33,805 nucleotides of DNA from Chthonomonadales bacterium (lineage in GTDB: Bacteria > Armatimonadota > Chthonomonadetes > Chthonomonadales > CAJBBX01). Location: NCBI GenBank assembly GCA_013360745.1, contig JABWBA010000032.1:1-33805 (forward strand), read 5' to 3'. The stretch's first letter is position 1, and every line of letters starts with the position of its first letter. The position numbers were made by a program, and so were the translations under genes. Positions 22,161-27,992 of this stretch are shown in pieces. The notes under the pieces were generated by a model. The model made no database searches, was not told the origin of the DNA, and worked only from the letters and a program-made list of their open reading frames with translations.

Positions 22161-23378
22161 ATGACTCTTGTCACCCTCTATTTCTTTGCCCATCAACCGG
22201 ATCGGCTGCTTCCGTTCGATCACCGTCCGAGCCATATCCATCAGCGAGGCCAGTCGCTTCGAGGTCGCTACTTCGACGAGCAGCTTAACGCGGATGTCTT
22301 TCGGAAGGTTGCTGATAAGTGTTATCGGCCGGCGACCCAGCTCCTGCTGGACACGCTCCGGCGCAGAGCGAGCGACGATAAGCCCTTCAAGCTCGCGTTC
22401 GGCCTCTCCGGCACCTTACTTGAGCAGATGGAACGGTTCGGCCCTGATGTGCTCGACCTGTTCGTTCAGCTGGCGGGTACAGGCCTTGTCGAGTTCGTCG
22501 GAGAAACCTACTTCCATTCCCTGTCGGGGCTCTTCGATCTGGAACGCAAGGAGTTCGCAACTCAGGCGGCGCTCCATGCCGATCGAGTGGAGGCCCTGTT
22601 TGGTCGCCGACCGACAACCTTCCGCAACACGGAGTGTCTGTATAACGACAGCATCGCGTTGGCGGTACAGCGCCTGGGTTATCAGGGAATCCTGACCGAG
22701 GGCGTTGATCGGGCGCTTTCAGGCTGGCGATCCCCGGACTTCGTCTATTCGGCTCCTTGCGGTCTTCCGGTGCTATTGCGCAACTATCGTCTTTCCGATG
22801 ATATCGGTTATCGTTTCAGCAATCGTGATTGGGACGGGTGGCCGTTGCGCGCCGAGCAGTTCGCCGACTGGCTGGGCGCCAATACCGATATGCATATCCT
22901 CCTGGCCCTCGATTACGAAGCGCTTGGAGAGCATATGTGGGCCGATACCGGTATTTTCGAGTTTCTGGCCGCACTCCCGGACGCCATCGCCCAACATCCG
23001 CATCTCGAGTTCGTTACCCCCGCCGAAGCGATCGAGCGCCTCTCGCCTATCGGTGAGATAACCGTTGATGACTATTCCACGATCTCATGGGCCGATCAGG
23101 AACGGGACACTTCTGCGTGGCTCGGCAACGAGATGCAATGGTTTTGCTACGAGGAGATGCGGCGGATTGAGGACGATGTCAAAGGGACAGGAGACCCGGA
23201 GATCATCGACGCATGGCGTCGGATGCTCACTTCGGATCACCTGTATTACATGGCAACGAAGTCGTTGAGCGACCAGGACGTCCATCGGTACTTCAGCGCA
23301 TACGGTTCTGTCTTCGAGGCATTCGTGCGGCTGCATACAGCGCTGACGGATCTGAGGCATATCGCTCGCGGAGCCTGA
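22161..23378 (+). CDS. Glycoside hydrolase family 57 (alpha-amylase-type)
   Basis: 405 residues, short for GH57 but typical of the small alpha-amylase-like group. The N-terminal 'LYFFAHQPDRL' with a following His matches GH57 motif 1 (HQP). Glu158 in 'FRNTECLYND' sits where the nucleophile is expected, and Asp251 in 'LALDYEALGEH' where the acid/base is expected. No signal peptide is present, so it probably acts in the cytoplasm on an alpha-glucan such as glycogen or maltodextrin. There is no classical ribosome site before the ATG. It lies just after tRNA-Ser, possibly reading through from that promoter, and converges with the ParA operon, 12 nt between stops. Exact specificity (amylase, 4-alpha-glucanotransferase or branching type) cannot be fixed from motifs. 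Confidence 0.9.
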   Translation: MTLVTLYFFAHQPDRLLPFDHRPSHIHQRGQSLRGRYFDEQLNADVFRKVADKCYRPATQLLLDTLRRRASDDKPFKLAFGLSGTLLEQMERFGPDVLDLFVQLAGTGLVEFVGETYFHSLSGLFDLERKEFATQAALHADRVEALFGRRPTTFRNTECLYNDSIALAVQRLGYQGILTEGVDRALSGWRSPDFVYSAPCGLPVLLRNYRLSDDIGYRFSNRDWDGWPLRAEQFADWLGANTDMHILLALDYEALGEHMWADTGIFEFLAALPDAIAQHPHLEFVTPAEAIERLSPIGEITVDDYSTISWADQERDTSAWLGNEMQWFCYEEMRRIEDDVKGTGDPEIIDAWRRMLTSDHLYYMATKSLSDQDVHRYFSAYGSVFEAFVRLHTALTDLRHIARGA

Positions 23379-23390
23379 ACTGCCGCACGG

Positions 23391-23948
23391 CTATCCATCC
23401 GGGGATGAGATCGCCGATTCGATCAGATCACCGACGAAGTTCAGATCGGCGTCTGCGGCGAGAAGACCGGAGATCGGCGATTCGGTGAACTCGTAGACCG
23501 ACCAGCAGGGCCGCGGCCAGACCCGTCCCGGAGGCGGGGCGGCAGGGGTTGCGTAGCGGCGGGAGGTCTCCCCAGCCGGATCCACCGTTTCGAGCAACTC
23601 CAGAACATTGTTCACCCTTGCCAGATAGTAGCCGCCATCGCTCGCATCGGAAGCCTGAAGCGCCGACCGGAGTTTGCCCGTCTCCTCCAGCAGGCGAACG
23701 CCGAGCGTCTCGAGTGCGCTTACGAGGCCGCCCTTTAGCTGGCCATCATCGGCAACCGTGGTGTCCTGGATCTGGATCGGGATGATCTCGTCATCGACAG
23801 AGGTAGGAGTCGAGATCGCATCATCAAGTGCGCCGGCCTCGGTCGCATCATCCTCTGTCGATACCCCCTGGATCAGGGCATCAAAATCGAAGCTGCTGGC
23901 GCCTTTGCGCAATCGCGCCCTCAGGGCTTCGGATTTATCCGGCCGCAC
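23391..23948 (-). CDS. Unrecognised small ParA-linked protein, possible ParA partner
   Basis: 185 residues from the GTG at 23946-23948, chosen because GAGGAGG lies 9 nt upstream; this start overlaps the end of parA by 14 nt. No family recognised. The N-terminus is basic (Arg/Lys-rich through about residue 15). An acidic, Ser/Thr/Asp/Glu-rich stretch (about 25-60) follows, then a predicted helical segment rich in Leu/Ala/Glu (about 70-125) and a Pro-rich piece before a final acidic helix. It lacks the ParB nuclease-like fold, the CTPase motif and an obvious helix-turn-helix, so it is not ParB. Translational coupling to parA suggests a partner or regulator. A basic N-terminus that stimulates ParA ATPase is known from ParB and other partners, but that role here is inference. 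Confidence 0.72.
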   Translation of the reverse strand: MRPDKSEALRARLRKGASSFDFDALIQGVSTEDDATEAGALDDAISTPTSVDDEIIPIQIQDTTVADDGQLKGGLVSALETLGVRLLEETGKLRSALQASDASDGGYYLARVNNVLELLETVDPAGETSRRYATPAAPPPGRVWPRPCWSVYEFTESPISGLLAADADLNFVGDLIESAISSPDG

Positions 23949-24711
23949 GGAGCAGCACCTCCTCGGCAAGCGCCTCGTAGTTCTGCGCTCCGGACGCTCG
24001 ACGATCATACAGGATAATCGGAACCCCCTCGAGTTCCGATTCGGAGACCCTTACGTTCTTGTAGATCATGGTCTCGAACACCTTGTCTTCGAACCGCTCC
24101 CTGATCTCAGCCGCGATCGTCGCATGCAGCCGTGTACCACGTTCATACATCGTCACCAGGACACCGAGAAGCTCCACCCTGAAGCGGAGACTCTTCGTCA
24201 GCGCCACGATCATCTTATTCAGTGTATCCATGCCCGCGAAGGCATAGAACTTCGGCTCCGTAGGTATGAGTAGATGGGTCGCGGCTACGATGGCGTTCTG
24301 CGTCAGCGTACCAAGCGAAGGCGGGCAATCGATGAGCACCCAATCATAGGTCTCTTCCGTGTAAAGCGCCTCCAGCGCGTTCCGCAGGCGATAGGCTTTG
24401 TCAGCGTGAGGAAGGAGCACCGCCTCGGTCTGCGCGAGGTCGAGATGGCCCGGAGCCAGTTCCAGCGGCAGATCGGCGATTGGTTTCAGGATCGTACGGA
24501 GCGGCGTCGTTTCGGGATCGAGAAGCACCGTATGAAGGGCGCTCTCCAACTCGTACCACGCGACACCCATCCCGACGGTAAGGTTCGCCTGCGGATCGAG
24601 ATCGATCAGGAGAGTCCGTTTGCCTCGTTCCGCAAGGCACGCCCCCAGATTCGCGACCGTGGTCGTCTTCGCGACGCCGCCCTTCTGATTGACGACCGCA
24701 ACAACCTTCAC
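23935..24711 (-). CDS. ParA/Soj-family ATPase without ParB
   Basis: 258 residues from a GTG at 24709-24711; the stop of the upstream gene and this start share one base (TAGTG). The deviant Walker A motif is at residues 10-17 (Lys-Gly-Gly-Val-Ala-Lys-Thr-Thr), with signature Lys10. 'LLIDLDPQANLT' and 'VLIDCPPSLG' are the other Walker-type motifs, and 'NVRVSESELEGVPIILYD' is the Soj-like C-terminal region. There is no N-terminal helix-turn-helix as in plasmid type Ia ParA. Such ATPases dimerise with ATP, bind DNA or another surface non-specifically, and move plasmids, chromosomes or cargos when a partner stimulates hydrolysis. No ParB, parS-like repeat or gid/rnpA context is visible, so this is probably an orphan positioning ATPase rather than the chromosome-partition ParA. 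Confidence 0.93.
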   Translation of the reverse strand: MKVVAVVNQKGGVAKTTTVANLGACLAERGKRTLLIDLDPQANLTVGMGVAWYELESALHTVLLDPETTPLRTILKPIADLPLELAPGHLDLAQTEAVLLPHADKAYRLRNALEALYTEETYDWVLIDCPPSLGTLTQNAIVAATHLLIPTEPKFYAFAGMDTLNKMIVALTKSLRFRVELLGVLVTMYERGTRLHATIAAEIRERFEDKVFETMIYKNVRVSESELEGVPIILYDRRASGAQNYEALAEEVLLRAAG

Positions 24712-25484
24712 TAGCTCTCACGGTCCCCGGAGGTGGTCTCCTCATCGTTGGCCAGTACCAGCTTTGAGGCGTGAGCCACCAGAAAGCCCAGAGGATTATA
24801 TACCGTTCGGGTTCGCAGAACAACCTCCATCGGATCATGGGCAGCGCGAGCCGCGACGGTGAAAAGCCCGTTCCGCAGATCCTCAAGGAAGAGCATGTAC
24901 TCTGAGGATTTGTAGAGATCCGATTGCACACGGAGTTTCGTCAACTCTACAACCGACTTCCATAGCGCCGAACTGGGATCGACTGCTCTCTCGGGTGGTC
25001 GGAATCGAACGGTATCGCCGATACAGAATGGATTGGTCCAAATATCACCGATCGGGCACCACTCGACACTCGCCGAGGACGCTGATATCGGAACGCCGAG
25101 GGTAGCGCCAGACAGGCCAATCCTGATCGGATACAACGCCTCCTGCACCGCGCCATCCACGGATCGCAGCACGAGCCCGAGGACAGCCCCATCACCGGGC
25201 CGATCTCCGCTTCGTATCAAATGAACCGCGCCATCGGCTCGGGTAAAGGCGCTGACAAAGCCGTAGGCCAGAGGGCGGCGCTCTCGGAGCCAGCGGCGGG
25301 CCGCCTCGACCGCATCGGCCGCACCGGCCCCTTCCGGCCACTCAAGCACGACACACTCCGGGCTGCCATCGCTATGATAGGCAAGAACCGCAGGGCGAAC
25401 TCCGCCCGACCTCACCAGGGCGCCAGTGGCGCCGACGTCGAGGAGGGTAAACTCGGTATCGAAGGCAAACTGTGACGCCGACAA
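24711..25484 (-). CDS. Unrecognised first protein of the ParA operon
   Basis: 257 residues if translation starts at the TTG at 25482-25484, with GGAG 11 nt upstream and the sigma-70 promoter about 80 nt away; other starts are possible. No family recognised. The first ~170 residues look like beta strands and short helices with several Gly-rich turns. The C-terminal third is a long helix ('SSALWKSVVELTKLRVQSDLYKSSEYMLFLEDLRNGLF') followed by 'VVLRTRTVYNPLGFLVAHASKL'. It has no signal peptide or membrane segment, so it is cytoplasmic. Its TAG shares a base with the parA GTG, so the two are tightly coupled. It may be a cargo adaptor or regulator of the ATPase, which is inference from coupling only. 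Confidence 0.7.
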   Translation of the reverse strand: MSASQFAFDTEFTLLDVGATGALVRSGGVRPAVLAYHSDGSPECVVLEWPEGAGAADAVEAARRWLRERRPLAYGFVSAFTRADGAVHLIRSGDRPGDGAVLGLVLRSVDGAVQEALYPIRIGLSGATLGVPISASSASVEWCPIGDIWTNPFCIGDTVRFRPPERAVDPSSALWKSVVELTKLRVQSDLYKSSEYMLFLEDLRNGLFTVAARAAHDPMEVVLRTRTVYNPLGFLVAHASKLVLANDEETTSGDRES

Positions 25485-25508
25485 GTCGTCGTGTACTCCG
25501 ATGGTGAG

Positions 25509-25546
25509 AAAAAAGAGACAGATCTCGATGGTTGCGGATCAACCAT
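25509..25546 (-). promoter_or_regulatory. Hairpins and T6 tract in the leader of the ParA operon
   Basis: On the minus strand, downstream of the promoter start site, a perfect 7-bp stem (25540-25546 with 25528-25534, 5-nt loop) is followed by a small 4-bp stem (25523-25526 with 25515-25518) that runs directly into six Ts (25514-25509). This could be a weak attenuator before the first gene. Both stems are short, so chance is possible. Confidence 0.3.
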
Positions 25547-25564
25547 GATCCCGAACCGTGAGCC

Positions 25565-25594
25565 ATTTTAGTACGCTATGGCATGTGGTGTCAA
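25565..25594 (-). promoter_or_regulatory. Sigma-70-type promoter of the ParA operon
   Basis: On the minus strand a perfect TTGACA (25589-25594) is 18 nt from TAAAAT (25565-25570). Transcription would start near 25558, giving a leader of about 74 nt before the TTG start of the first gene. It is the best promoter match in the window by eye. Confidence 0.75.
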
Positions 25595-25801: not shown

Positions 25802-26419
25802 GTGCAAGCCGTGGCTGACTCAGATGCGGCGCTCGTGGAACGCTGCAGATCCGACGACCACCGCGCGTTCGATCAAATCGTGGTTCTGTACAAGGATCGC
25901 GTGCTGAACTACGTTCGGGGCATGATATCGGATCGAGACGACGCTGATGACATCGCACAACAAACCTTCGTCAAAGCGTATGTCGGACTTCGATCCTTCC
26001 AAAATCGAGCTTCGCTGCATACATGGATACTGCGCATCGCCACGAACCTGTGCATCGATTATCGTCGACGACGCGGAAGGCCCGATCGGCGCCCGGTATA
26101 TCTAGGAGCCACAGGGGACGATGCTCAGGCAGCAGCGCTGGAGATCGTGGATACTCGTTGCGATCCGGCTCAGGCCTACGCCAGGCAAGAGATGTCCCTG
26201 CTTACGAGGAACGCTATCGAAGCCTTGCCCGATCGATTGAGAACGGTGCTGATCTTGCATGATATGGAGGGGCTGCCCTATGAGGAAATCGCTCGCATCG
26301 TTCGATGTCCGCTGGGCACCGTGAAGTCCCGCCTGTTCCATGCCAGAATGAACGTTCGAGAGCAGTTGTTGCCCTATCTACGAGGCGATGTCCTTGCCCA
26401 GGATGGAGAAAGCCGATGA
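25802..26419 (+). CDS. ECF RNA polymerase sigma factor (RpoE-like)
   Basis: 205 residues from a GTG with GGAGG 11 nt upstream; a second GTG three codons later is an alternative. Region 2 (about residues 22-90) carries 'VLNYVRGMISDRDDADDIAQQTFVKAY' and 'HTWILRIATNLCIDYRRRR', the core-binding and -10 recognition helices. Region 4 (about 135-190) has 'LPDRLRTVLILHDMEGLPYEEIA' and a helix-turn-helix 'CPLGTVKSRLFHAR'. Regions 1 and 3 are missing, as expected of ECF factors. It redirects RNA polymerase, probably in response to envelope stress given its neighbours. The stop overlaps the anti-sigma ATG (ATGA). ECF factors usually activate their own operon, but no matching promoter motif could be placed upstream. 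Confidence 0.95.
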   Translation: MQAVADSDAALVERCRSDDHRAFDQIVVLYKDRVLNYVRGMISDRDDADDIAQQTFVKAYVGLRSFQNRASLHTWILRIATNLCIDYRRRRGRPDRRPVYLGATGDDAQAAALEIVDTRCDPAQAYARQEMSLLTRNAIEALPDRLRTVLILHDMEGLPYEEIARIVRCPLGTVKSRLFHARMNVREQLLPYLRGDVLAQDGESR

Positions 26420-26907
26420 CGTGCGATAAAGCGAGGCGGTTGGTCTCAATGCGGATAGACGGGACGATCTCCGCGGGCGATCTCCTCAACCTCGACGAGC
26501 ATCTAGTCCGGTGCACGGGCTGCAGTGTAGTGGCCTCCGATCTCGAAAGGATCACCGCAAATCTACGGTCTATCGAACACGTTCAGGCGTCGGATGCATT
26601 CCTTGACAACGTACGCCAGCGCCTTTCGGAACTGCCGGACCGTTCACGCCGCGCACCTATGCTTCATTCGTGGTATCGCCCACTGGGCGCAGCCGCAGTG
26701 GCCATCACGGCTGCTGCCGTGTTGATCACCTTTCAGCTACGCAACACGAGCGTACACGAAGATCGTGCTGCCGCGGTGCACGGCGCCATCGCACAGGCTC
26801 GCGTGCAGCATATGGCGCTTGCCGCCTCCAGTCCGCTGGAGGACATCACTGTGGCAACGCTGAACGGCGAAACGGATGTGATCTCGGCGCAGGACTCCGA
26901 TCCTTAG
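26416..26907 (+). CDS. Membrane-anchored zinc-finger anti-sigma factor
   Basis: 163 residues from an ATG overlapping the sigma stop. His29-x-x-x-Cys33-x-x-Cys36 in 'LDEHLVRCTGC' is the zinc-binding anti-sigma (ZAS) motif, with Cys3 as a possible fourth ligand. A single membrane helix lies at about residues 88-108 (Ala/Val/Ile-rich), so the N-terminus is cytoplasmic and the last ~55 residues are periplasmic. It should hold the ECF factor inactive until an envelope signal causes proteolysis or conformational change. The third gene, an RseB-like exported protein, fits as a periplasmic sensor, but the RseA-RseB pairing is inferred from order and topology, not from shared residues. Confidence 0.9.
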   Translation: MTCDKARRLVSMRIDGTISAGDLLNLDEHLVRCTGCSVVASDLERITANLRSIEHVQASDAFLDNVRQRLSELPDRSRRAPMLHSWYRPLGAAAVAITAAAVLITFQLRNTSVHEDRAAAVHGAIAQARVQHMALAASSPLEDITVATLNGETDVISAQDSDP

Positions 26908-26984
26908 GTTCCAGATATAGCCCCATGCAAGATCGAACGTTGAGAACCGCATATCGGCATTCACAGGGATACCACCGATCCATC

Positions 26985-27992
26985 ATGGGTCGAGCGGTGT
27001 GGATTCTCGTTGTTGGGCTGACTTCGATTGCACCGATGGCGCTCGCTCAGCTTCACGTGACGACGGCAGGCTCGAACGAGAACCGAGCGCGGCGTCTTCT
27101 TGCCCTGTATCTGCATCGAGGCCAGACGACGCCCTACATCGCAGAACAGACCACACGAACGTTTACAGGAGGTATGGCGGAATCACGTCAGATCGTGAAG
27201 CACGCTGGACCGGGACGTCAACGGATTGAGTATCTAGCTCCAAATGCTCGCCGAGGCGATGTGATTCTCATCGTCGGCTCGCGAATGCTGCATTATCGCG
27301 CCCAACCTCGACCCCGCCTCTTCACGGGAGACGCCCCGGCCGATCACTTCGCGACACGTGCGCGGGACCTGTTGATCTCGGTCCGCAAGGGTCGCGTCCG
27401 TCTCGATCTGGTCGGCTCTGAGGAGGTCTCCGGACGCCCAGCCGCGATCGTCGATATCCACCCAAAGGGCGGAGGAGCCCACAAGCGATTCTGGATCGAT
27501 ACCGAATACGGCGTCTGCCTCAAACATGAAACGATCAACAGGTCTGGCGATGTCCTTGCATCGACGAAGCTAACCCGCATCGATTATGCACCTAGACTGA
27601 ACGATCGGGAGTTTAACCCGGCCTCGTTGCCAGCGGCGCCGATCGAAGCGATGGTCCCCAGATCGCCCTCCGTCGGGACCATCGCAGAGGCGCAGAAGCA
27701 GGTCGCCTTTACCATCCGAGCGCCCAGCGCGCCGGACCGCTATACGGTACGGGGAATCTGGATTATCGGAGAGGGTGCGAAGCGGGGCGTGCTCCTCCGG
27801 TATTCGGACGACGTGAACCCGTTCACCGTCACGCTCCGAGCGGCCCCAAAACTGGAGGCTCGGACCCTGAAGGACGCACCACCGCGCCGTCGACGCGGCA
27901 TCACTGTTTGGACGAGTCGCGGCGTCGTGTACTCGTTGATCGGCACGCTCTCACCGGAGATGCAGCGATCGATCGTGGACAGTGTGGATTAG
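26985..27992 (+). CDS. Exported MucB/RseB-like (LolA-fold) protein
   Basis: 335 residues from the ATG at 26985, chosen because it gives a clean signal peptide (about residues 3-21, ending Ala-Leu-Ala); an in-frame ATG at 26925 would add 20 residues. The following section resembles the MucB/RseB N-terminal or LolA-like fold: 'PYIAEQTTRTFTGG', 'GRQRIEYLAP', 'GDVILIVGSRMLHYR', then 'FWIDTEYGVCLKHETINRSGDVLASTKLTRIDY', the alternating strands of a half beta barrel. The last ~110 residues form a second domain with an Ala-Gln-x-x-Val-x-Phe start, like the RseB C-terminal or DUF4367-type domain. In the RseB model it binds mislocalised lipids and controls anti-sigma cleavage. That function is inferred from position after the sigma/anti-sigma pair. 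Confidence 0.8.
   Translation: MGRAVWILVVGLTSIAPMALAQLHVTTAGSNENRARRLLALYLHRGQTTPYIAEQTTRTFTGGMAESRQIVKHAGPGRQRIEYLAPNARRGDVILIVGSRMLHYRAQPRPRLFTGDAPADHFATRARDLLISVRKGRVRLDLVGSEEVSGRPAAIVDIHPKGGGAHKRFWIDTEYGVCLKHETINRSGDVLASTKLTRIDYAPRLNDREFNPASLPAAPIEAMVPRSPSVGTIAEAQKQVAFTIRAPSAPDRYTVRGIWIIGEGAKRGVLLRYSDDVNPFTVTLRAAPKLEARTLKDAPPRRRRGITVWTSRGVVYSLIGTLSPEMQRSIVDSVD

Follow-up and report, generated by a model that had tools for sequence, protein, structure and literature searches.

A conserved operon encoding a Soj-like ParA ATPase and two proteins of unrecognised families, a probable positioning system in one family of Armatimonadota

The 33,805-nt stretch of DNA analyzed here (the window) comes from the 3.3-Mb genome of a member of the Chthonomonadales (Armatimonadota). 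The contig is chromosomal in character, with genes for tRNA-Ser, an M48 peptidase and a PLP-dependent TrpB-like enzyme, and its minus strand contains between positions 23391 and 25484 a trio of overlapping genes, P1, parA and P3. The features of the locus are as follows:

24711-25484, minus strand: P1, first gene of the trio, TTG start, 257 aa
23935-24711, minus strand: ParA, middle gene of the trio, GTG start, 258 aa, Soj-like
23391-23948, minus strand: P3, last gene of the trio, GTG start, 185 aa, putative ParA-activating adaptor
25565-25594, minus strand: promoter-like site TTGACA-N18-TAAAAT, near-consensus (11/12)
23958-23964, minus strand: Shine-Dalgarno sequence GAGGAGG, within the last part of parA and 9 nt ahead of the P3 start codon (GTG)
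23862-23948, minus strand: P3 residues 1-29, putative ParA-binding/activating peptide, from conservation, MRPDKSEALRARLRKGASSFDFDALIQGV

The G of the P1 stop codon is also the first base of parA (1-nt overlap, TAGTG), and parA and P3 overlap by 14 nt (GTGCGGCCGGATAA). These overlaps, the three open reading frames and the 11/12 site agree with the initial annotation, which had placed all three genes behind one strong promoter. At the lower threshold of 9/12, 0.9 sites are expected in a promoter search of this region. Of the 13 genomes that carry the trio, 11 have an equivalent site (TTGACA/T-N17/18-TANAAT) ahead of P1, which scores 11/12 in ten of them, including that of the window, and 10/12 in the other. 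Since only 0-0.3% of shuffled sequences reach the score observed in those 11 genomes, the promoter of the window is not a lucky match. The two genomes of genus g5 score no more than 9 and 8 upstream of P1, no better than expected by chance. A perfect inverted repeat (ATGGTTG-N5-CAACCAT, 25528-25546) separates the promoter from the P1 start in the window and is absent at the corresponding place upstream of P1 in the relatives. Homologues of P1 and P3 are intact in 13 and 12 genomes, respectively (~33-51% identity to the window proteins), and the gene order is always kept, which indicates that both frames are real genes.

The P1-ParA-P3 order was found in all 12 species examined of the family to which the window genome belongs. 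Outside that family, a single species of a sister family has it too. Conservation of the three-gene order, a check suggested by the initial annotation, thus extends to 13 genomes, in one of which the contig ends within P3 and only the start of the gene is visible. None of the other 278 of the 291 Armatimonadota genomes surveyed contains the trio, and the distribution of its ParA in these 291 genomes is that of P1. A scan of one genome per bacterial or archaeal species with two short peptide patterns, by which distant relatives could be missed, returned only 11 records, all apparently from the same relatives. No gene is conserved beside the trio throughout the loci compared. One neighbour alone recurs: a gene for a GH57 glycoside hydrolase, which converges on the trio (22161-23378 in the window) at 6 of the 11 readable family loci (the window and five others), but which genera g3 and g5 lack at this place. 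Because neighbours vary between genera in this way, we rejected the neighbourhood as a guide to a cargo. Divergent from the trio, genes coding for an ECF sigma factor, an anti-sigma-like zinc-finger protein and a MucB/RseB-domain protein occupy positions 25802-27992; they also lie beside the trio at one other locus (L021), and were not found there at the remaining loci.

ParA matches PF13614 (E = 3e-48) and contains a deviant Walker A motif of the KGGxxKT type (NQKGGVAKTTT) with its signature lysine; residues K10, K15, D39 and D128 are invariant in an alignment of the 13 trio ParA sequences. Its nearest solved chains are ParA/Soj proteins (best score 177 bits, against 44.6 bits for McdA), and its score against the MinD family TIGR01968 (61.9 bits) falls far below the cut-off of 212.9 bits. 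The trio ParA proteins form a single clade (support 100/100, stem of 2.98 changes per column) that joins Soj far from MinD, at an attachment point that is unsure because long branches meet there. In a search with the trio ParA, trio members score 467-529 bits and Soj proteins at most 233 bits. The alignment also reveals basic residues at or next to what we take to be the positions of the two DNA-binding arginines of Soj, one of which is shifted by one position.

All 13 trio genomes also carry a separate soj gene immediately followed by parB, and therefore the trio ParA is not the chromosomal ParA of these bacteria. The ParB proteins of these pairs have an N-terminus of the RGLGKGLxALL type, degenerate in the genome of family f3. 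In the window genome, the soj-parB pair is on another contig (C50), and ParB_N domains were detected only on contigs C50 and C84. The initial annotation had described an orphan ParA with no ParB, and we looked for a ParB or parS site elsewhere that might pair with it; the description stands, as the pair on C50 has its own, different ParA. A canonical ParABS assignment for the trio was rejected given the separate soj-parB in 13/13 genomes and the lack of a ParB domain in the trio. The second ParB_N protein (C84, L054:1495-2406) has no adjacent ParA and, when read from a TTG start, lacks the N-terminal ParA-activating motif; its pairing with the trio ParA looks unlikely. On C50, the neighbours of soj-parB are genes for DUF3467 and for a phage portal of the SPP1 type (L019:7370-11584), and DUF3467 also adjoins soj in two relatives (loci L198 and L199). 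This region might represent a domesticated phage or gene-transfer-agent cluster. Another genome (G010) encodes a paralogue of the trio ParA (419 bits) without P1 or P3, located just upstream of a DUF3467 gene, a terminase-like open reading frame and an SPP1-portal gene (L109:8434-12726, contig C3).

Mean pairwise identity is 78% for the trio ParA, 66% for Soj, 46% for P1 and 42% for P3, and of 66 genome pairs, 65 show a higher identity for the trio ParA than for Soj. Conservation above that of Soj suggests that the family depends on the trio ParA. A similar profile is known for PomZ, which is conserved relative to the faster-diverging PomX and PomY (PMC7993993). P1, ParA and P3 have diverged in proportion to Soj (r = 0.87-0.92), which points to vertical descent of the trio.

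Neither P1 nor P3 yielded anything beyond chance-level matches in Pfam, NCBIfam, PHROGs and PADLOC (for P3, the last three were scanned with the window's own sequence only), and no solved structure in the PDB resembles either predicted fold. No DNA-binding, ParB or MinC domain was recognised in either protein, and hhalign found no sequence relation between them. Both partners had been called unrecognised, and indeed the profile searches match them to no known family, partition families included; together with the lack of any description of such an operon in the openly accessible literature searched, this bears out the suggestion that the operon is undescribed. AlphaFold2 predicts for P1 an alpha/beta fold (pLDDT 87.4, pTM 0.81) without a basic N-terminal peptide. 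The P1 model matches several hypothetical proteins of phages, the best with E = 3.4e-5, a probability of 1.00 and a TM-score of 0.41 by query length over 145 columns, and judging from the order of structural elements the phage-like part appears to be the N-terminal alpha-beta-beta-alpha-beta half. The match was traced to Catdawg gp79 (phrog_11268), assigned by its length of 210 aa and without an accession, and hhalign detected no sequence relation between P1 and this protein.

P3 is composed of three parts, as seen in the alignment and the AlphaFold2 model: conserved residues 1-29, a variable linker and a conserved C-terminal helical domain. Residues 1-29 (consensus MRxDKxxxLRxRLRKGADxFxFDALIQGVS, with L13, R14, F20, F22, A24 and L25 invariant) are the most conserved stretch outside the C-terminal domain. 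Basic residues are interspersed with acidic ones there, which keeps the net charge low (0 to +3), and the model gives this N-terminal helix low confidence (pLDDT about 64). The linker is predicted to be disordered; it spans residues 29-67 with a net charge of -11 in the window, and ranges in the relatives from 20 to 84 aa and from -1 to -12. In the C-terminal helical domain, pLDDT is mostly over 90, and W144 and W149 are invariant. The basic N-terminus and the helix of the initial annotation are thus retained, the former with a small net charge, while its acidic stretch is better described as a disordered linker. A basic N-terminus, a linker and a C-terminal domain are also the layout of the ParA-activating adaptors ParB, PomX and McdB, and by this analogy P3 is a putative adaptor of the same kind, with residues 1-29 as its candidate ParA-binding/activating peptide. 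An N-terminal pattern, FxF[DEN]...L..G, is conserved in both P1 (residues 6-18) and P3 (residues 20-28), and might be a common docking motif or a chance resemblance.

We consider it probable that the trio is a dedicated, chromosome-borne ParA positioning system in which P3 is the activating adaptor and P1 a second partner. This interpretation is supported by a gene order that is fixed in the 13 trio genomes, to which the trio is confined among the 291 Armatimonadota, by a constraint on ParA above that on Soj, by the invariant ATPase residues and by the existence of a separate soj-parB. Speaking against it are the small net charge of the P3 N-terminus and the low confidence of its predicted helix, the shifted arginine position in ParA and the lack of a cargo gene linked to the trio. 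In such a system, ATP-bound ParA dimers would coat the nucleoid, and the basic N-terminal helix of P3 would dock on the dimer and stimulate ATP hydrolysis and release from DNA. The C-terminal helical domain of P3, on its flexible linker, would hold the cargo or P1, the latter acting as a cargo-side scaffold or as a co-activator, and the resulting ParA gradient would distribute or center the complex. The cargo thus positioned is more likely a protein assembly than DNA. We put forward more tentatively, as a serious possibility short of an even chance, a further interpretation: a three-component ParA system with two new partner families, core to one bacterial family, whose cargo would be the divisome or an undescribed protein assembly, handled by means not described in this phylum.

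A specific choice of cargo within the main interpretation would be the division site. In this version, P3 would act as PomX and P1 as PomY, and the complex would recruit FtsZ at mid-nucleoid, which we regard as unlikely although two partners lie beside the ATPase, P3 has a PomX-like layout and the operon is core to the family. MinD is absent from all 13 trio genomes and present in 10 of the 18 other genomes of the class (Fisher p = 0.0013, in a test that ignores shared ancestry). However, MinD is missing from 270 of the 291 Armatimonadota genomes, which makes its absence from trio genomes the norm, and family f2 includes six or seven genomes that lack MinD as well as the trio. The idea of the trio as a Min replacement, suggestive within the class, is therefore largely deflated by the phylum survey, and the rarity of MinD in the whole phylum is the reason for our low estimate of the division-site version; P1 also lacks HEAT repeats and P3 an evident long coiled coil. 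The 21 genomes that do encode MinD belong to families f2, f8 and f24.

A DNA partition system whose cargo is the chromosome or a replicon, with P3 or P1 as a centromere-binding protein other than ParB, would fit the Soj-like nature of ParA, and many plasmid ParA proteins have partners that are not ParB homologues. We nevertheless find it quite improbable, for soj-parB is already present in every trio genome, the contig is of chromosomal character and P1 and P3 have no recognised DNA-binding domain. No parS-like site with up to 3 mismatches lies in the window, a weak test because consensus parS is missing throughout the window genome up to 2 mismatches. Some ATPases of the ParA/MinD superfamily are mainly regulators, and the predicted compact alpha/beta structure of P1 is compatible with a function other than positioning, in which the ParA-like ATPase would serve as a molecular switch and control, by way of P1 and P3, an enzyme or an export process. 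We rate this, too, as quite improbable, as the trio has no enzyme or secretion gene as a constant neighbour and the layout of P3 is that of a ParA activator. Finally, a plasmid or prophage leftover, evoked by the phage-like predicted fold of the N-terminal half of P1 and by the ParA paralogue next to portal and DUF3467 genes, is highly improbable in view of the presence of the trio in 12/12 family members, its divergence in step with Soj and the stronger selection on ParA than on Soj, and a viral or plasmid origin was rejected given that the viral contigs searched contain no relatives of P1 or P3 and that plasmid ParA matches stay below 60% identity (best near 42%).

ParA/MinD ATPases are widespread bacterial positioning engines whose partners are too diverse to be found by homology. 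Two candidate partner families come with this operon, from a phylum whose cell biology has hardly been studied; our interpretation predicts that the 29-residue peptide of P3 should activate the trio ParA. If the cargo is the divisome, the trio would represent an independent two-partner solution like PomXYZ; if it is not, the operon would point to a cellular structure so far undescribed in these bacteria.

Among known systems, MinCDE shares with the trio an ATPase of the ParA/MinD superfamily, but the MinD score of ParA is well under the family cut-off and P1 and P3 contain no MinC domain. The likeness to Soj-ParB-parS resides in the Soj-like ParA and in the N-terminus of P3, which would play the role of the N-terminal peptide of ParB; P1 and P3 lack a ParB domain, and the soj-parB pair of the genome is on another contig. 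As in McdAB, ParA adjoins a small protein with a basic N-terminus, and of the McdAB-like arrangement initially proposed the general ParA/adaptor layout holds. Membership in McdAB does not: bacterial microcompartment shell proteins (PF00936) are encoded by 0 of the 31 class genomes, which also excludes such organelles as the cargo, McdA is far from the trio ParA by score, and the trio has a second partner, P1. McdB has an invariant tryptophan near its C-terminus (PMC11321042), unlike the P3 of the window, which has none in its last 20 residues and whose W144 and W149 stand 36-41 residues short of the C-terminus. In function, the nearest parallel is PomXYZ, compared here by architecture. PomXYZ is found in myxobacteria, another phylum; PomY is made of a coiled coil and HEAT repeats (PMC13170346), in contrast with the predicted alpha/beta P1, and P3, half as large as PomX, has a helical C-terminal domain, without an evident long coiled coil. 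In PomX, an N-terminal peptide that is short and charged precedes an Ala/Pro-rich linker and a coiled-coil C-terminal domain (PMC7993993). Both systems nonetheless combine a ParA/MinD ATPase, far more conserved than its partners, with two proteins, P1 and P3 being presumed partners that flank ParA in 12 genomes; one resembles PomX in its layout, in which a conserved N-terminal peptide, short and charged, is followed by a disordered linker and then a C-terminal domain, and the other has no basic N-terminus.
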